Below, one piece after another: positions 26,182 to 58,310 of a stretch of 64,000 nucleotides of DNA (positions within the stretch are counted from its first letter, which is position 1; each line of letters starts with the position of its first letter). Position numbers and translations under genes: made by a program. The notes beneath the pieces are model-generated. The model worked only from the letters and a program-made list of their open reading frames with translations, made no database searches and was not told where the DNA came from. Source of the stretch: Bacillus sp. PK3_68 (GTDB taxonomy: Bacteria > Bacillota > Bacilli > Bacillales > Domibacillaceae); NCBI RefSeq assembly GCF_003600835.1, contig NZ_NQYC01000002.1, positions 62,001-126,000 of the forward strand, in the 5' to 3' direction.

Positions 26182-26357
26182 TTAAAGAAATTGATCTAGA
26201 TGTCAATCTATCGAGATGATACATTTCAATGTTGTGTAAAATACAATATTTACGAATCGTTACGATAAAATGTTTCTTAATCTTATACACCAAACACTAG
26301 GAGGAAATTGAACCTCTAACGTTCCTCTGCTATATTAACGATAAGGAGTGGTAAATC

Positions 26358-26504
26358 ATGAAAGAAGAGAAGGATCAAATTAAACACGGAAATAGTGCAA
26401 ATAAGGAAGAGGAAGTTCAGTTTGTCAAGGAAATTGATCCGGAAGCACTTAATGTCATCAAACGGTTGTATGACAAGACGTTCAGGGACTTGGTAGACCG
26501 GTGA
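26358..26504 (+). CDS. Probable antitoxin of a decayed Doc system
   Basis: A 48-residue protein (starts MKEEKDQIKHGNSANKEEEV) with an excellent AAGGAGTGG site seven bases before ATG. Its stop overlaps the GTG start of the Doc remnant, the usual antitoxin-toxin coupling. The C-terminal half (FVKEIDPEALNVIKRLYDKT) is a helical segment of the kind that binds toxins. It appears intact while the toxin is destroyed. The family name is uncertain. Confidence 0.6.
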   Translation: MKEEKDQIKHGNSANKEEEVQFVKEIDPEALNVIKRLYDKTFRDLVDR

Positions 26505-26744
26505 ACTATTTAACTTACGACATTGCTGCTAGCATTAATCGGGATATGATCGAGACATATAGTCCCGGCGAAATGATAGGGGGTCAAAGAGCCTGCGCTA
26601 TTGGACAGTGCTATCCAACAACCATTTCAAACGATGTTTGGAGAGACGCTGTATAAAGACATTTTCGAAAAAGCAGCCGCTATAACCGTCGATTTTGCAA
26701 CTGGCAAAATTACGTTTGATGAATTGGTAAGTATCATCCGTTAG
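26501..26744 (+). pseudogene. doc: Doc/Fic-family death-on-curing toxin, broken
   Basis: The N-terminal part (YLTYDIAASINRDMIETYSP, then after a shift GVKEPALLDSAIQQPFQTMF and DIFEKAAA) matches Doc toxins. It then jumps to the C-terminal end (VDFATGKITFDELVSIIR). The central segment that should carry the Fic motif HxFxxANKR is deleted, and one extra G near 26578-26582 shifts the frame. So the toxin cannot be active. Confidence 0.75.
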
Positions 26745-27496: not shown

Positions 27497-27697
27497 TCCT
27501 AATGAAGCTTCATAATGTTTTAGATACTCACAAGGTGAAAATCTTTTTTAACCCTAACTGAAAGATGAAGAGGATTTTCTCCTTCGTTTAACTTTGCATC
27601 AAGTTCTTATTTAACGAATTTTTAACTATGAGATGTTATAAACTATGGTGGGCCATTCAAGAAATTCACTTATAAAAAAGTTAATCGAATCCTATAC

Positions 27698-27800: not shown

Positions 27801-28034
27801 GTGAAGTTTTACAGCAAGTTCTTAATTAAATTAACGTTACTGGGTTTTTATCTTGTAAGCGGTTCTACTTTTTTTATTCTTATATTAAATAAAGGAATTA
27901 TAACGTTAACAAGCCCTTTCTATTTATTAGGTATCCTTTTGTTTGTATACGGATGGATTGGGTTGGCTCGCACTTACTTGAGTAAACAAAAAAGTTCGCA
28001 CAAACAATTTCCTCAACATGAGATTATTCACTAA
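27801..28034 (+). CDS. Two-TM small membrane protein, paralog 1 of 3
   Basis: A 77-residue protein: basic N-terminus, helix 1 (about 10-29, LTLLGFYLVSGSTFFILIL), helix 2 (about 36-54, LTSPFYLLGILLFVYGWIGL), then the conserved ARTYLSKQK and a polar tail. Paralogs are at 36543 and 40462. The start is GTG eight bases after a consensus AGGAGG, in a 14-base block identical in all three copies. I do not recognise a named family. The conserved junction (YGW.GLARTYLSK) and the conserved leader argue for a real, regulated gene. Confidence 0.8.
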   Translation: MKFYSKFLIKLTLLGFYLVSGSTFFILILNKGIITLTSPFYLLGILLFVYGWIGLARTYLSKQKSSHKQFPQHEIIH

Positions 28035-36429: not shown

Positions 36430-36542
36430 TCCATTCTTATTGATGAAACCTATTTGATTATAGAACGTATAAAAACTAAGTTCTTTCATCATGAATATAT
36501 TAACCAATGCATCATTATTCTAGAGTACAGGAGGTTTGGTTC
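36430..36542 (+). promoter_or_regulatory. Conserved leader of small-protein paralog 2
   Basis: Closely matches the leader of paralog 1 (GATGAAACC, AGAACGTATAAAA, CTAAGTTCTTTCATCATGAAT) and ends with the identical AGGAGGTTTGGTTC block before GTG. Confidence 0.6.
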
Positions 36543-36776
36543 GTGAAATTTCCCGGCAAGTTCCTGATCAAGTTAATGCTGTTGAGCTCTTATCTCGTAG
36601 GTGGTTCTGCTTTTTTTATTCTTTTACTAAGCAAAGAAATTATAACATTAACGAGTCCTTTCTATTTATTAGGCATCTTTTTGTTTGTATACGGATGGGT
36701 TTGGTTGGCCCGTACCTACTTGAGTAAACAAAAGGAGAGAAACAAACAACTCACTCAACATAAGATTGTCCACTAG
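36543..36776 (+). CDS. Two-TM small membrane protein, paralog 2 of 3
   Basis: A 77-residue paralog of the 27801 gene: VKFPGKFLIKLMLLSSYLVG, second helix ending FLFVYGWVWLARTYLSKQK, polar tail ending HKIVH. Although a longer frame begins at 36507, homology and the AGGAGG eight bases upstream fix the start at GTG 36543. It stands alone between a nuclease gene and terC and is followed by a perfect hairpin terminator at 36947. Confidence 0.8.
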   Translation: MKFPGKFLIKLMLLSSYLVGGSAFFILLLSKEIITLTSPFYLLGIFLFVYGWVWLARTYLSKQKERNKQLTQHKIVH

Positions 36777-36946: not shown

Positions 36947-36990
36947 ACCAAACAAAAGCATGGATTAGCAGATCCATGCTTTTGTTTGGT
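36947..36990 (+). terminator. Perfect 19-bp hairpin
   Basis: ACCAAACAAAAGCATGGAT pairs without mismatch with 36972-36990 around a 6-base loop. The stem itself supplies a T-rich descending arm. It ends the paralog 2 transcript before terC. Confidence 0.75.
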
Positions 36991-38038: not shown

Positions 38039-38154
38039 ATCAAAAAATCTTCCAGAGTTGAATCATAAGTTAATAAACCGGTGTACAATACACATTTAAA
38101 TGACTGTTAAATAACTCAGGCATGGATTTACTTGAATCCATGCCTGAGTTATTT
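38039..38154 (+). repeat. ~95-bp repeat, right copy, with perfect 20-bp hairpin
   Basis: Repeats 26753-26850. It also holds a hairpin whose 20-base arms (38109-38128 and 38135-38154, core CTCAGGCATGG) pair perfectly around six bases. Only A/T-rich sequence follows on either strand, so it may be a bidirectional terminator between terC and the lysE-type gene. Confidence 0.75.
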
Positions 38155-38198
38155 ACTTTCTGAATAGAGAGAATCAAGTTATGTGTTAGTCAATTGAT

Positions 38199-39797: not shown

Positions 39798-40247
39798 ATT
39801 TACGCTATTATCATTTGCTTTATACAACATAAGGCTTCATAGCAATTAATGCTTTTTCTCAAACTGACAGGTATTAGATAGAGTTCATAGGAGCGAGCAG
39901 TTCCAACAACCGTTAATCTTCAACAATCGATTACACTTGTTATACAAGACAGGTAGAAAATGAGCAAAATTTTAATAAAAATGGAAATAAGCCCGCTGGA
40001 TAATAATCCACTTTTATCCATATCTTTCAAAATAAATTCTTTTTATTTATTGCAAGGTGCCGGCTTGTGAGGTATTTTGAATCACACTTTATTTCAAAGT
40101 AACAGTAAGTGATTAGCATTTCATTGGACTTATTGAACTTATGATTGAGGAAAATAAAATGATCTTTGTATTAGACTTTTGTGTCAACCGTTATAATTGT
40201 TTTTTATATACAAATAAGAGAAAAGGGGGTGGCACTCTTTTATAAAC
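39798..40247. other. No gene recognised
   Basis: Intergenic, AT-rich. Short frames without ribosome sites. It ends at the first dif-like site. Confidence 0.5.
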
Positions 40248-40275
40248 TGTTCGCCAAATTCTTATTTGACGAACA
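40248..40275. repeat. dif-like recombination site 1 (11-6-11)
   Basis: Arm TGTTCGCCAAA, 6-base centre TTCTTA, arm TTTGACGAACA. The arms are inverse of each other with one mismatch. A second 28-bp site at 41729-41756 has the identical left arm and five identical bases before it. The architecture is that of Xer sites; function is inferred. Confidence 0.6.
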
Positions 40276-40355
40276 ATTAAATAGAAAATGGGACGAGGGT
40301 GTGGTAAACTATCCCTGATGAAATCAAAATGCAAAATACGAACCAAACCTCCCAT

Positions 40356-40461
40356 TATAATGAAACTTATTCCATGGTGAAACGTAGATAAACTAAACTT
40401 GATCACCAATCACAACGTGAATGATTAGCTGCTATCATTTCAATTTTAGGAGGTTTGGTTC
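40356..40461 (+). promoter_or_regulatory. Promoter box and leader of small-protein paralog 3
   Basis: TATAAT (40356-40361) and a leader ending with the conserved AGGAGGTTTGGTTC. GAACCAAACCTCC at 40340-40352, just upstream of the -10 box, is the exact inverse complement of the last 13 bases before the start codon. Confidence 0.6.
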
Positions 40462-40698
40462 ATGAGAATGTCCAGCAAGTTCTTAATGAAATTAATGTTG
40501 GTAAGTGTTTATCTCGTTGGCGGTGCTGCTTTTTTTATTTTTCTATTAAACGACAGAGTATTAACAGCATCAAATCCTTTATATTGGTTGAGCGTCTCTG
40601 TATTTATGTATGGATGGGTTTGGTTGGCGCGTACATATTTGAGTAAACGAAAGAAAAAGGAATCGATAGCTGCCACGTCACATAAAGTTGTCTTTTAA
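40462..40698 (+). CDS. Two-TM small membrane protein, paralog 3 of 3
   Basis: A 78-residue, more diverged paralog: MRMSSKFLMKLMLVSVYLVG, second helix ending FMYGWVWLARTYLSKRK and a longer basic tail. Starts with ATG in the same position as the GTG of the other two. It lies inside the segment bounded by the two dif-like sites, 200 bases before mntA. Confidence 0.8.
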   Translation: MRMSSKFLMKLMLVSVYLVGGAAFFIFLLNDRVLTASNPLYWLSVSVFMYGWVWLARTYLSKRKKKESIAATSHKVVF

Positions 40699-40897
40699 AC
40701 ATGGATGTTGATGAAAATTCCTAAGATGATGGTAACCCTTAACTCGTTTTGTTGAGCATCATGAACAGTGATAGAATCTCTACGGACTCCATAACTAAGA
40801 GCAAACCGACCAGATTCCATTCCAGAGCTTACTTTGGTAATCATATAAAATAGCAGCAAGTATTTGTTAGGACAAAATTGACGGAGGTCTTTTAATA

Positions 40898-41305
40898 TTG
40901 GATAAAAATATGGAGAGCATGATCGTAGAAACGCTAAATGAAGACGTATCTCCAGTTTTAATCTATTTATTCGGTTCAACGGCCAAAGGCATTACACATC
41001 AGGACAGCGACATTGATGTCGCCTTTCTCAGCAGTGAAGAGAAAATCGACCAATATGAACTCTTTTTGCTTGCTCAAAAGCTGGCAGCAAAGCTTAATCG
41101 GGATGTAGATTTGATTGATTTAGGCCAAGCGAGCACAGTTTTTAAAGCACAAATAGTTTCCACGGGCAAGGCGATTTATTGCGCAGACGAACAGAAGAAA
41201 GCTTATTGGGAGCTACACACCTTGAAAATGTATGCCAAGTTAAACGAAGAACGTTCTCCCATCCTGAAAAATATAGGCGAAAGTGGGTCTGTTTATGAAA
41301 AGTGA
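40898..41305 (+). CDS. mntA: MntA-type nucleotidyltransferase antitoxin
   Basis: A 135-residue minimal nucleotidyltransferase with the diagnostic GSX10DXD motif: Gly26-Ser27, Asp38, Asp40 (FGSTAKGITHQDSDIDVAF). In characterised HEPN/MNT pairs MntA adds AMP to a tyrosine of HepT and neutralises it (type VII toxin-antitoxin). Start is TTG 40898 with GGAGG ten bases upstream; ATG 40910 is an alternative. The stop lies inside the start of hepT, so translation is coupled. Confidence 0.92.
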   Translation: MDKNMESMIVETLNEDVSPVLIYLFGSTAKGITHQDSDIDVAFLSSEEKIDQYELFLLAQKLAAKLNRDVDLIDLGQASTVFKAQIVSTGKAIYCADEQKKAYWELHTLKMYAKLNEERSPILKNIGESGSVYEK

Positions 41306-41699
41306 TGTGGTTTTGAACAAAGCCAGTATGATTGAACGCTATATTAAGCGGATACATGAAGAGTACAACAATACGCCTAAAAATCTAGAGAACTGCACCA
41401 AGCAGGACTCGATTATTTTAAACCTCCAGCGGGCGTGCGAGGCCAGTATCGATCTCGCCATGCACATAGTGGCCGATAAAAAGCTCGGCTTGCCGCAAAA
41501 TAGTCGGGATGCTTTCACGCTCTTGGAAGATCACGGGATTATTCCCTCCTCTCTCTCCTCCAAAATGAAAGCGATGGTGGGATTTAGGAATATAGCGATT
41601 CATGGTTATCGGGATATCAATCTGGACACCTTGCAAAAAATTCTTGAAAACCATTTAGTTGATTTCATGCAATTTACGAAAACCATTCTCTTATATTAA
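41295..41699 (+). CDS. hepT: HepT-type HEPN RNase toxin
   Basis: A 134-residue HEPN-domain protein (DUF86) with the catalytic and target motif RX4HXY: Arg98, His103, Tyr105 in FRNIAIHGYRD. The helical bundle is complete (LQRACEASIDLAMHIVADKK in the first helix pair). The ATG at 41295 overlaps the mntA stop by 11 bases. It should act as an RNA-cleaving toxin unless adenylylated by MntA. The pair lies between the two dif-like sites. Confidence 0.92.
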   Translation: MKSDVVLNKASMIERYIKRIHEEYNNTPKNLENCTKQDSIILNLQRACEASIDLAMHIVADKKLGLPQNSRDAFTLLEDHGIIPSSLSSKMKAMVGFRNIAIHGYRDINLDTLQKILENHLVDFMQFTKTILLY

Positions 41700-41728
41700 T
41701 CAGTTTCGAATAATAAAATTATGTAAAC

Positions 41729-41756
41729 TGTTCGCCAAAATTGTGTTTGGCGTACA
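41729..41756. repeat. dif-like recombination site 2 (11-6-11)
   Basis: Arm TGTTCGCCAAA, centre ATTGTG, arm TTTGGCGTACA, inverse with one mismatch. It is 25 bases before the ATG at 41782 of the XerS-like recombinase and 30 bases after the hepT stop. It could be a recombination site, an operator for the recombinase, or both. Confidence 0.6.
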
Positions 41757-41781
41757 CTTGATTGTTTTTGAATAATAAACT

Positions 41782-42912
41782 ATGGCGGTGATCATCATGC
41801 CTTCTTCATCAAGAGAATATCAGCAAGCCGAAATCCGGATAGAAGAACAATTAAAACAAATGCCTGATTATGTAAAAGAATATGTCCGGGCCAAAAAACG
41901 TGCTGGGCTCTCCTCTACCACTTTGCTGGAGTATCTTTACGATTATAAAAAGTTTTTTGAATGGCTCCGATTAGAAGGCATTGCTAGTGAGCCTGATAAT
42001 GCCTCTATTCCCTACACGGTTTTGGAAAAACTTCGAAAAAAAGAGGTAGAATTTTTCATTGATTATTTAAGTGAAGAAAAAATAGAGGAACGACAAGGCG
42101 TATGGAAGACCCGTTCTGCTGCTCGCGTGACGCGGTATATACAAGCCCTTAAATCTTTGTTTAACTATTTGACAAAAGAAACGGAAGACGATGATGGAGA
42201 ATGCTATTTTTACCGGAATGTGATGGCAAAAATTACGACGGCAAAAGATAAAGAAACAGCCAATCACAGAGCACGGCGTATCAACAGCGTAATCCTAAAT
42301 ACCGAAGAAATACAGAACTTCCTCTTTTTTATGAAAAATGAATATGAACATACCCTTTCCAAACGGCAAAAGTCCCTTTTTATCAGAGACAAGGAACGGG
42401 AGGTGGCGATGATCTCCTTAATGCTGGGCAGCGGTGCCCGAGTCAGCGAGATCGCGAGTCTCACCCTTTCGGATATCGATATACCAAAAAACCAGATAGA
42501 TGTGATCCGAAAAGGAGGAAAAGCCGACTCAGTGAACGTCCTCCCTTCTTCTATGTCAGACCTGCAAGCGTATCTAAGCATACGAAAACAGCGGTATGGA
42601 GCGACGGACAGTGATATATATGTTTTTCTCTCTAAGTATAAGGGAAAAGCGCAGCCTATTACGGTGAGGGCAATACAGAAGAATCTTAAAAAATATACAG
42701 AGGCTTTCACCTATGGAAAAGCATTAAGCCCCCACAAGCTGCGCCATTCTTTCGCAAGCGAATGGCTTCGCAATGGAGGGAATCTCGTCCTGCTTCGAGA
42801 TCAGCTTGGGCATAACTCTATTGAGACCACTTCCCTTTATACAAACCTTTCGGATAGAGACAGCCAGCAGTTTATGAACGAAATAGAAAAAAATCGAGGA
42901 AATGAGCAATGA
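41782..42912 (+). CDS. XerS-like tyrosine recombinase
   Basis: A 376-residue tyrosine recombinase resembling XerS of streptococci and bacilli in length and in family blocks: LPDY-like MPDYVKEYVRAKKRAGLSST at the start, DDDGECYFYRNVMAK linking the domains. Catalytic residues are complete: Arg220 (GSGARVSE), Lys244 or 247, His318 and Arg321 (HKLRH), His344 (LGH), Tyr353. ATG 41797 (residue 6) has the better site (GGCGGTGA); 41782 is the longest frame. Directly preceded by dif-like site 2. A degraded copy of its last 260 bases is at 51350. Confidence 0.92.
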   Translation: MAVIIMPSSSREYQQAEIRIEEQLKQMPDYVKEYVRAKKRAGLSSTTLLEYLYDYKKFFEWLRLEGIASEPDNASIPYTVLEKLRKKEVEFFIDYLSEEKIEERQGVWKTRSAARVTRYIQALKSLFNYLTKETEDDDGECYFYRNVMAKITTAKDKETANHRARRINSVILNTEEIQNFLFFMKNEYEHTLSKRQKSLFIRDKEREVAMISLMLGSGARVSEIASLTLSDIDIPKNQIDVIRKGGKADSVNVLPSSMSDLQAYLSIRKQRYGATDSDIYVFLSKYKGKAQPITVRAIQKNLKKYTEAFTYGKALSPHKLRHSFASEWLRNGGNLVLLRDQLGHNSIETTSLYTNLSDRDSQQFMNEIEKNRGNEQ

Positions 42913-50513: not shown

Positions 50514-51349
50514 TCCTCAAAAATTATACTAACTATATAAAAACTCTAACTTTTCACCCCCCTCTTTCTTCTAAATCGGTAATATTTTTTGATTTTTCGG
50601 TTTCTTATTTGCAAATGTCATGCCAATTTTTATTGATTAGTTTCCGTCAACTAGGAAAAAGCGTTATAAAAAGAAACCAAACGGCGAACATGTACCCATA
50701 TTGAGTATGCTAGGAACATAATGAGCACGCCCTTTCATTGAAGAATTGACAGACATCGACAGAAAATCTTTTTCCTACTTATGAGTTAGCCCAGGGAGCG
50801 TTATCAAGAAAGCTGATATTGGTTAAAAATTGCTAAAGATCTAGTCAACACACCAAAGGCCATTCCACAGGCGTTGTTATTAAATCTGCTATGAACGCTG
50901 AGTGCTATTTAAAACTAAACAGTAAAAATTAATTGTTCCTGTGCCCCTATATGCACAGTTTCTTGAAACAGTCTATATTTCTTGCAATAAAATAATTTCC
51001 AAAAATTTTTCTCAAGTTTTTTCTTTATTCAACTCAACAGGCTCTAGTTATTAATAAAATGGTTAGGATTGATATGCATTTAAGAATAAAAAATTCAAAG
51101 AAGCATAATTTATATCTAATTTTTAAAGAGAAGTGTTACAAATCAGCAAGTGTTAATTTGTTTTGCTTTCTTATAAAATTGACCGCTGTACAAACGACAA
51201 TTTTATCAAACCAACTTTTTATTGAACTCATTTCTTGAACGGCTTCCAGAGACGTCAGCGCCTTTTTTATCGATTCTTGAACTATCTTCTTGTTTTTTTA
51301 CATAACTAAACGCTAAGCGGCAAATATCCTCTTTATGATCAGTAATAGT
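50514..51349. other. No gene recognised
   Basis: AT-rich sequence with only short, broken frames. It ends at the recombinase fragment. Confidence 0.5.
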
Positions 51350-51616
51350 GAAAAGCGCAGCCTATTACCGTGAGGGCAATACAGAAGAATCTTAAGAAAT
51401 ATACAGAGGCTTTCACCTATGGAAAAGTATTACCCCCCACAAGCTGCGCCATTCTTTCGCAAGTGAATGACCTCGCAATGGAGGGAATCTCGTCCTGCTT
51501 CGTGATCAACTTGGCCATAGCTCTATTAAGGTCATTTCCCTCTATACGAACCTTTCGGATAGAGAGCCAGTAGTTTATGAACGAGATGAAAAAAAATGGA
51601 GGTAGGGATTAATAAG
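51350..51616 (+). pseudogene. 3' fragment of a XerS-like recombinase
   Basis: Nearly the same nucleotide sequence as 42646-42912, the last third of the XerS-like gene, with scattered substitutions and several single-base losses (for example in the C-run before CACAAGCTGCGCC). It still spells HKLRH, LGH and the Tyr region in broken frames. The upstream two thirds are missing. Confidence 0.85.
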
Positions 51617-56326: not shown

Positions 56327-58310
56327 TTACATGGATGGCGAAGATGGCACCTGTGTATTGTCTTTTTTCAATAGCCAGTATTGGCTGCCGAGCATAAGAA
56401 CAAACGCAACAAGACCAATCGCACTATAGATTCCTTCAGGGTAGATCAAAAGGAATCCAATGATCACCGCAACTGCTCTTTCTAAAAAGTTAAGCCTTCT
56501 CATCCAGTAGCCGATCATTCCTGCACCGATTGCAATCATGCCGACGAAGGCAGTGGAAATGACCCAAAGTGCTTCTATCCACGTCGTATCAATCAGCATC
56601 AACTGTGGAGAGATGACAAAGATATAAGGAATGATAAAAGCCGCTATAGCAAGCTTTGATGAGATGATTCCTGTCCGTACCGGTTCACCGCCAGACACCC
56701 CAGCTGCTGCAAAGGCCGCGAGTGCTACAGGAGGCGTGATATCGGCAATGATTCCGAAATAAAAAACAAACATGTGAGCCGAGAGAGCCGGTACACCAAA
56801 CAACAGAATAGCCGGAGCTGCGATTGTGGACGTAATGACATAGTTCGCTGTGGTAGGCGATCCCATGCCTAATATAAGTGATGCGATCATGGTTAAGATC
56901 AGGGTAGGTATCAAATATCCACCCGAAAGCTCAAGCAAACCATTTGCCATCTTAAGTCCAACACCTGTTACCGTAACAACGCCAACAATCATTCCGGCAG
57001 CCGCTGTAGCCGCTGCTACACCAAGAGCTGTTCGAGCACCATCTGCCAGCGCTTCAATAAAGAGCTTCGGACCCATTCTTGTCTGCTTATTGAACATTCC
57101 GACTGCAATCGCACTGACGATCGACCATAACGCCGCCTTCGTTACACTCATTCCGCTCATTAAGAGGATAATAACGGCCAAGATTGGAATAAGCAGGTAG
57201 AGTTGTTTAATAACCCTTTTCGTTTCTGGCATCTCTTCCCGGGACAGTCCTCTGAGCCCGATTCGTTTCGCTTCAAAATGGGTCATAATCCAAATCCCTG
57301 CAAAATAGAGGATAGCCGGAATGGCAGCAGCCTTTGCAATATCCCAATAGGTGATCCCGCCTCCAATAAATTCAACCATCAAGAACGCAGCAGCCCCATA
57401 ACAGGCGGCATAATCTGTCCTCCGGTAGAAGAGGCAGCCTCAACCGCTCCAGCAAAGTTCTTGTTATAACCTAACCGCTTCATCATCGGAATGGTAAAAG
57501 CACCCGAAGTTACTACATTTGCAACCGAGCTTCCACTGATCGTTCCCTGCAGGGCACTTGAAAAAATGGCTACTTTGGCAGGTCCCCCCACTCTTCGGCC
57601 CGCAATAACAATTGATAGATCATTAAAATATTCTCCTACTCCTGTTTTTACAAGAAATGCCCCAAACAAAAGAAATAAGAAGATGTACGTTGAGGAAACC
57701 GCGAGCGGCGTTCCCAGTATTCCTTCTGTCGTAAAAAACATCGTTCTAACGATACGTTCAATCGTCAAACCTCTATGCTCTAAAAACCCTGGCATATATG
57801 GCCCAAAATAAGCGTAAAGCAGGAATAAACCCGCAATAACCGTAATAGGAAGCCCGACGACACGTCTTGTTGCTTCTAAAACAAGTACAATCGCGATGGC
57901 TCCTATCAGAAAATCCTGTGTTGTAAGCTTTCCCACCCTCATAACAAGATCATCCATAAATAAGTACCAGTACGAACCGACAGCTAGAGATAATAAGGCC
58001 AGGAGCATGTCATACCAAGCTACTTGAAACCGTTGCTTTTTTTCTCTTTTCTTTTTGATGCAGGAAATAATAAAAAGATCAGTGTAAGTGCAAAACCTAA
58101 ATGGATCGTTCGCTGCAGCTGTGCTGGCAAAACGCCAAATATAGCTGTATAAAGCTGAAATAAAGAAAAGGCAACAAGCCCGATAAGCGTAACCCAGTAC
58201 AGGACTCCTTTTAATTTTCGAAAGCCTGCTTCTGGATCGTATTTCTCCATTAACTCTTGTACGGTATCATCTGAAATTTGATCGCCCTGCAGATGTTTAT
58301 TGTTTTCCAA
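56327..58310 (-). pseudogene. TRAP transporter fused permease (TAXI type) with two frameshifts (possibly intact in vivo)
   Basis: Three frames give a complete fused 4TM/12TM TRAP permease of about 660 residues, the usual TAXI size. The large-domain signature GTISGSSVANVVTSGAFTIP and VEAASSTGGQIMPPVMG is intact. It then continues in another frame as AAAFLMVEFIGGGITYWDIA. The breaks are at a C-run 57394-57397 (one more base restores MGAAAF) and a T-run 58037-58043 (restores KKQRFQVAWYDML). Start is TTG 58310 after GGAGGGAAAGG; a TTG at 58325 is less good. It works with the binding protein at 58862. Confidence 0.85.

Follow-up and report, generated by a model that had tools for sequence, protein, structure and literature searches.

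Xer systems that rely on a single recombinase have been described in which XerS resolves dimers at a site beside its own gene at the terminus, according to the parts of the papers cited here (PMC5357621, PMC2731167). In Lactobacillus helveticus, xerS is located near the skew shift point, and the portion of the report cited records that no site was found (PMC3025954). In Acinetobacter, excision of xrs cassettes carrying inverse sites with unlike centres was not observed, in the sections of that work used here, and like-centre sites on two plasmids made cointegrates (PMC11705084); adjacent module pairs invert or are lost through like spacers, as stated in part of a further report (PMC13141974). 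Here we analysed a stretch of 64,000 nucleotides from Bacillus sp. PK3_68 (the window), in which a xerS gene is preceded by a toxin-antitoxin (TA) cassette enclosed by two 28-bp dif-like sites, site A adjoining xerS and site B at the outer cassette edge. An earlier note on this DNA had proposed that this may be a Firmicute counterpart of the Acinetobacter pdif modules that brings its own recombinase. The order site B - cassette - site A - xerS proved to be recurrent, and XerS with site A is probably the dimer-resolution system of the replicon itself, to which site B and the cassette would add an exchange slot.

Both sites of the window showed the 11-6-11 layout exactly where the earlier note had placed it, with an identical left arm and different centres. 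Site B reads TGTTCGCCAAA-TTCTTA-TTTGACGAACA on the plus strand and TGTTCGTCAAA-TAAGAA-TTTGGCGAACA on the minus strand, TAAGAA being a B-type centre, and site A carries ATTGTG. In each site, the inverted-repeat arms matched in 10 of 11 positions. The centre of site B places it in another, mirrored class than site A; the pair is inverse by centre type and a tie by arms, with unlike centres. The half-arm, searched with at most one mismatch, gave seven matches in the window (four of them the arms of sites A and B) against 1.34 expected, and a count of seven was reached in none of 100 shuffles of the window. When the full palindrome with a free centre and up to three mismatches was searched for in the whole genome (4,832,247 bases), only sites A and B were returned, and a control pattern had no match in the same sequence. 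The possibility of a general operator present at many promoters was rejected, since there are just two such sites in the genome. A genome-wide search for A-type sites with up to two mismatches was uninformative beyond the window (25 matches versus 27 in the control).

The content of the segment between the sites also agreed with the earlier description, consisting of a gene for a small protein and the mntA-hepT pair. Both TA proteins scored above the NCBIfam equivalog cutoffs of the type VII MntA/HepT families (MntA, 122 bits versus a cutoff of 60 for NF047752; HepT, 165 bits versus a cutoff of 60 for NF047751). For the 78-amino-acid small protein, neither Pfam nor NCBIfam gave a match at a threshold of 0.001. 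The XerS-like gene reported after site A was likewise borne out: its open reading frame starts 26 bases past the end of the site, and the product reached 417.6 bits against the NF003462 cutoff of 267. Alignment to XerA identified R220, a lysine within RKGGK (243-247), H318, R321, H344 and Y353, which we take to be the full catalytic set of a tyrosine recombinase. Two further Xer-like genes, with open frames of 302 and 300 amino acids, are located on contig C1, and a scan of the genome contigs with the XerS protein returned two distant loci.

Table 1. Features of the window; positions count from the first letter of the 64,000-nucleotide stretch (aa, amino acids).
Feature	Position	Strand	Remarks
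Site A (site 2 of the earlier note)	41729..41756	+	TGTTCGCCAAA-ATTGTG-TTTGGCGTACA; dif-like, conserved before xerS homologs
Site B (site 1 of the earlier note)	40248..40275	-	Outer cassette edge; strand by centre type, a tie by arms alone
Small membrane-like protein, 78 aa	40462..40698	+	Cassette gene; the window has two further paralogs
mntA, nucleotidyltransferase antitoxin of type VII TA pair	40898..41305	+	NF047752; Polbeta PF18765; TTG start
hepT, HEPN RNase toxin of type VII TA pair	41283..41699	+	NF047751; PF01934
xerS, 376-aa tyrosine recombinase	41782..42912	+	NF003462; XerS tree
TTATGTAAACT	41719..41729	+	Abuts the left edge of site A; core TTATGTAAAC at the same place in several relatives
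Orphan decayed A-type site, other arm class	26231..26258	-	No xerS follows; resembles the A region of locus L059 (same genus)
Decayed B-like site	27593..27620	+	Centre TTCTTA on the plus strand, as in site 1; about 180 bases before the paralog at 27801-28034
Frame-broken relic, 3' part of a second xerS	51310..51606	+	Similarity to xerS

Relatives of XerS (E <= 1e-60) were detected in 23 of 101 related genomes and, across the order, in 62 of 397, the genome studied here being counted in both, and a match covering at least 80% of XerS was present in 740 of 72,556 plasmid records. Some of the relatives were located in chromosome-size contigs, e.g., in G351 with its single contig of some 5.5 Mb. 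A dif-like site A preceded xerS in 52 of the 60 related loci kept for the count and was lacking in L045, L067, L084, L085, L099, L100, L101 and L107. Chromosomal-type loci (L027-L032), duplicates (L069, L080, L104, L081 and L075), fragments and special cases (L111-L119), as well as L102 and L103, in which site A was not recognised, are outside these 60. The distance from site A to the start of the xerS match was 44-162 bases in 50 of the 52 loci, with 378 bases in L043 and 673 in L065. The centre of site A was ATTGNA as a rule, the sites having been picked by a pattern that includes the centre. The exact 11-mer TTATGTAAACT also stands to the left of site A in L054, L060, L091 and L092; in several loci its place follows a -10-like box, and the motif itself may be such a box or one half of a dif for XerCD. 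We take this 11-mer to equal the right arm of the B. subtilis dif. TCGACA-like direct repeats were seen to the right of site A in many loci.

The partner site was sought within 3 kb upstream using the A arms of each locus, a free centre and at most 5 mismatches in 22 positions. Fifty loci entered this search, i.e., the 52 with site A minus L053 and L064, whose upstream sequence was short (at least 1 kb was required); near-duplicates (L055/L056/L058, L047/L048 and a Peribacillus group) were kept. A second site was found upstream in 40 of the 50 loci, compared with one of 50 for the reversed-arm control and one of 50 for the downstream control. The B sites were found by their likeness to A, and the test was therefore repeated with a core independent of the A arms, CGNNAAA-N6-TTTNNCG, which was present upstream without mismatch in 24 of 50 loci (reversed control, 2 of 50) and with at most one mismatch in 37 of 50 (control, 9 of 50). 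At their variable arm positions, the 24 perfect-core B sites had on average 2.17 differences to their own A and 4.28 to those of other loci, and none of 2000 permutations gave a value as low as 2.17. Among the 40 arm-defined sites, the mirrored orientation of B relative to A fitted better in 24 and the direct one in two (L062, L098), with 14 ties; for the 24 perfect-core sites, the numbers were 14, none and 10, respectively. The B centre took 24 forms in 40 loci and never equalled the centre of its own site A (list of 40, 24 of them checked by script). Simple excision between identical sites was rejected as an explanation, since the centres of A and B differ; with the sites, in addition, mirrored wherever the arms tell, the two are not expected to simply excise the segment. 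The arms of B are like those of the xerS-linked A of the same locus and unlike a canonical dif; three Peribacillus plasmid records have a canonical-like dif as well, separate from these sites.

The genes of the 40 cassettes were typed by tblastn with representative proteins. MntA and/or HepT were encoded in 16 of them (one a partial HepT, L109), DUF3800-like proteins, annotated so in plasmid records, in seven (one a remnant), Fic in four and HipA-like proteins in two, and RelA/SpoT or HNH domains occurred as single examples. Combined cargos were also found, e.g., DUF3800, Fic and MntA together. In Pfam, the HipA-like protein stayed below the cutoff of its match, and nothing was matched by the L048 protein of the DUF3800-like kind. 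PADLOC, given ten proteins, was clear for one Fic and one HipA-like protein and weak or negative for the other eight.

The window belongs to contig C2 (351,837 bases), all but 2 kb of which was analysed. C2 carries two complete 16S rRNA genes and tRNA clusters and is thus not an ordinary plasmid; the plain-megaplasmid reading was dropped because of the two 16S rRNA genes. Its cumulative GC skew has one minimum, at 275.9 kb, and one maximum, at 105.2 kb, separated by half a circle; the range greatly exceeds that of block shuffles, and an Alp7A/actin-like gene is located near the minimum. The skew extremes and the actin-like partition gene make a separate replicon likely, and a chromid or megaplasmid is the likeliest identity of C2. 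An overlap of the ends of C2 was looked for and none was found; a RepA_N search gave no match, yet its control matched nowhere either. The skew maximum of C2 is 1.5 kb away from site A, although the curve has a broad top, staying between 83 and 109 kb within 3% of its highest value. Across nine other plasmid records, all circular, site A and the skew maximum were separated by 0.04, 0.4, 0.4, 0.8, 1.6, 2.6, 6.5, 12.5 and 27.3% of the length, i.e., by no more than 2% in five records and 3% in six (Fisher p = 7e-7). The skew was run on nine of 12 records (one Niallia record, one P. frigoritolerans record and pBO1 were left out); the nine include two related Peribacillus plasmids and a Sporosarcina record whose site A is weak. 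This position suggests that site A is probably the dif of the 352-kb replicon.

Traces of exchange were sought at both edges of the slot. At site A, 31 related pairs were selected by closeness in the XerS tree, L076/L067 and L076/L075 being one comparison made twice. Homology began within 10 bases of the left edge of A in 10 of the 31 pairs, and in four of these, at 89-96% identity (L047/L049, L048/L049, L096/L097 and L097/L098), the cassettes had no mutual blastn match except at B. One gene of the L098 cassette is matched at 89% in another part of L097, a related plasmid. Homology continued upstream of A, as a rule into a common cassette, in 11 pairs and overhung A by 15-34 bases in two; two further pairs had in common just A, B and xerS, apart from a Fic gene that L041/L065 also share. 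At the other end, the edge of the main homologous block was within 10 bases of B in 30 of 36 pairs formed by nine Peribacillus-group loci (four named Peribacillus plasmids and five loci from genomes of one genus, taken to be Peribacillus because its member G203 has the xerS of P. simplex pSHB26). Between two Cytobacillus plasmids, identity is 98.8% for 6 kb to the right from a point 6 bases outside B; directly left of B they are unlike, with weaker matches of 76-84% farther left, and one of the two is without a segment of about 0.9 kb left of B. On pBO1, which is one of these two plasmids, a MntA-HepT cassette with both A and B is located about 60 kb from xerS, and the xerS gene there has no recognisable A of its own.

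An empty joined site, which the earlier note had suggested looking for, was found once, in L111. Its left flank, like that of B in L068 and L070, is followed by the left arm and a B-type centre, and the junction continues as the right arm of A and the xerS leader, giving a cassette-free hybrid site; the xerS of L111 has lost 57 bases (19 codons) in frame. In relatives, signs of gain, loss or replacement of cassettes are visible in the edges at A and B, in L111 and in pBO1, but none was seen for the cassette of the window itself. Based on the XerS tree, the XerS of the window is sister to that of L044 (76%), whose cassette is different. By pairwise identities, which were used for HepT and MntA, the closest HepT among the 40 scanned cassettes was that of L083 (73%), a locus whose XerS is just 42% identical to that of the window.

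The most probable reading, XerS and A as a dimer-resolution system with an exchange slot attached, is built on the anatomy, its recurrence, the likeness of the A and B arms, the homology edges, the pBO1 cassette, the one empty site and the terminus position. XerS and A would make up a Xer/dif system with one recombinase, carried by a second replicon of 352 kb close to its terminus, and because A stands with XerS at that terminus, the main job of the pair would probably be A x A recombination resolving replicon dimers. Site B, with matching arms and another centre, would close the slot on the cassette side of A. As the centres differ, A x B recombination should be rare and the cassette would be held in place; cassettes could be swapped by A x A and B x B recombination between co-resident replicons, either through a cointegrate and its resolution or by double exchange. 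The present cargo (the small protein and MntA-HepT) would stabilise the replicon. Under an alternative that we regard as unlikely, A is the sole recombination site, B is bound by XerS to control the promoter of the cassette or to give structure to the resolution complex, and cassettes are replaced by homologous or illegitimate recombination while selection keeps A and B. A promoter-like box (TGGACA-17-TATAAT) was noticed by eye two bases after B in several Peribacillus-group loci and -10-like boxes stand before A in several loci, which makes autoregulation plausible, and the variety of B centres (24 kinds in 40) would suit such a role; the site edges, on the other hand, are seen in pairs 89-99% identical, which leaves little time for selection to trim the flanks, and the whole B-cassette-A unit also occurs away from xerS. 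Chance palindromes around a TA pair that simply neighbours xerS would be in keeping with how common XerS-like genes are on plasmids (740 of 72,556 records). This explanation is very improbable, and as regards the sites it is already refuted by the 40 of 50 loci against 1 of 50 in the control, the 24 of 50 against 2 of 50 with the arm-independent core and the two site copies in the whole genome.

Integrative mobile elements exploiting Xer (IMEX) are bounded by direct repeats of a site, the centres of which match or nearly match. In an IMEX-like insertion, a circular element would have been integrated at the replicon dif by means of a XerS site, which would make B the left and A the right attachment site and would allow circular excision of the cassette. 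L111 resembles the product of direct A-B recombination, and mobile elements using dif/Xer are known, as part of the cited paper describes (PMC5357621). We nevertheless find this origin quite unlikely, as the direct orientation that it predicts fitted better in two of 40 sites and the mirrored one in 24 (none and 14, respectively, among the 24 perfect-core sites), the centres of A and B differ, and the one empty allele has a xerS missing 19 codons. The idea of a Firmicute pdif counterpart with its own recombinase is supported by the 40 of 50 loci, the edges, the pBO1 cassette and L111, but plain excision is unlikely and dimer resolution is probably the main job.

Several observations weigh against a dimer-resolution system with an exchange slot. 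Ten of the 50 loci had no second site, the orientation of B was a tie in 14 of 40, the window included, and six cassettes of 0.34-0.52 kb (L055, L056, L058, L060, L077 and L079) held no convincing gene. The arm likeness of the 40 B sites is partly given by construction, because B was found via the A arms, and the same applies to the constancy of the A centre, which is contained in the search pattern; the loci are not independent. With regard to the edges, A itself was not in common in 6 of the 31 pairs, the A edge in diverged pairs may reflect conservation of a functional site alone, 6 of the 36 Peribacillus-group pairs overran B by 27-224 bases, and L070/L108 had a further common block left of B. 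Since the xerS of pBO1 is without A, the gene may have moved there instead of the cassette. No relative was found that has both outer flanks of the window in common and differs in the cassette alone. As for the terminus, the record at 27.3%, pBpOF4-01, is a real exception, and the skew of the small plasmids at 6.5% and 12.5% was not beyond shuffles. Finally, the binding and cutting of both sites by XerS, the swaps made by it and its resolution of dimers are steps that we infer.

Further sites and xerS remnants were noted on the window replicon and in relatives. Beside the orphan A-type site of the window, the block 26271-26538 shows 91.8% identity to DNA upstream of the L059 xerS, and the decayed B-like site has a spacing to its small-protein paralog near that at site B; the third paralog is located at 36507-36776. 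Fragments similar to the 3' part of xerS also follow the xerS gene of L039 and that of L070, and small annotated recombinase fragments are found downstream of the gene in L097. In the pSHB26 record (W08), an additional A site at 58176 is accompanied by a truncated xerS, and the P. lenghuensis plasmid (W03) has another full-length xerS at 64073-65176, each besides the existing one. In the stretches examined, slots were mostly single, although the window replicon, pSHB26 and the P. lenghuensis plasmid carry a second site, gene or relic. Perfect intergenic hairpins with arms of 19 and 21 bases are located at 36947-36990 and 38108-38155, respectively. The intergenic segment at about 39919-40100 may be the remnant of an insertion element; its similarity to sequences on Stenotrophomonas, Klebsiella, Bacillus and Staphylococcus plasmids is 70-76%.

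It is an even call whether this extends to many large plasmids and chromids of Bacilli, in which an own dif, XerS and a mirrored heterospecific partner site would form a natural slot for the exchange of TA and defence cassettes between replicons, comparable to engineered recombinase-mediated cassette exchange. If true, dif-module mobility would exist in Gram-positives in a self-contained form, without host XerCD and based on the replicon's own dif, and dimer resolution, plasmid addiction and the exchange of TA and defence genes, usually studied apart, would be linked. The machinery that keeps the replicon monomeric would, on the slot reading, also supply it with addiction genes. Plasmid genes annotated as XerS would gain a testable job, and a single enzyme with a pair of short sites would suffice to test how single dif modules move. 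No earlier description of a XerS-linked cassette slot was present among the matches listed, at the level of titles and abstract openings and with few subscription journals covered.

In comparison with known systems, cited here from parts of the respective texts, the locus shares with XerS/difSL of streptococci and lactococci a single XerS-family recombinase, an adjoining site and a position at the replicon terminus (PMC5357621, PMC2731167). It differs in being located on a second replicon or plasmid of a host with two other Xer-like genes and in adding the partner site B and a cassette; moreover, difSL is 31 bp long with unequal arms and an 11-bp centre (PMC5357621), whereas the window site has 28 bp and a 6-bp centre. 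Plasmid prophages of B. cereus likewise combine a plasmid XerS-like recombinase with a ParM-like partition gene, as C2 does with its Alp7A/actin-like gene; no site, partner site or cassette is described in the part of that report considered (PMC8026635). Both families of the type VII MntA-HepT system (PMC7641770) are matched in the window, where the pair is one of several alternative slot cargos. The Acinetobacter pdif/xrs modules also carry short passengers, some of them TA genes, between inverse 11-6-11 sites with unlike spacers, and their exchange is explained by like-spacer recombination between plasmids (PMC13141974, PMC11705084). By analogy, the B-cassette-A anatomy would fit this like-centre rule with XerS in the place of XerCD. 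The Acinetobacter modules depend on host XerC and XerD and often come several per set, whereas here there is a linked single recombinase and, in the stretches examined, mostly one slot, and one of the sites doubles as the probable dif of the replicon. With its slot, the locus of XerS, A and B resembles a Gram-positive, self-contained version of the Acinetobacter dif modules.

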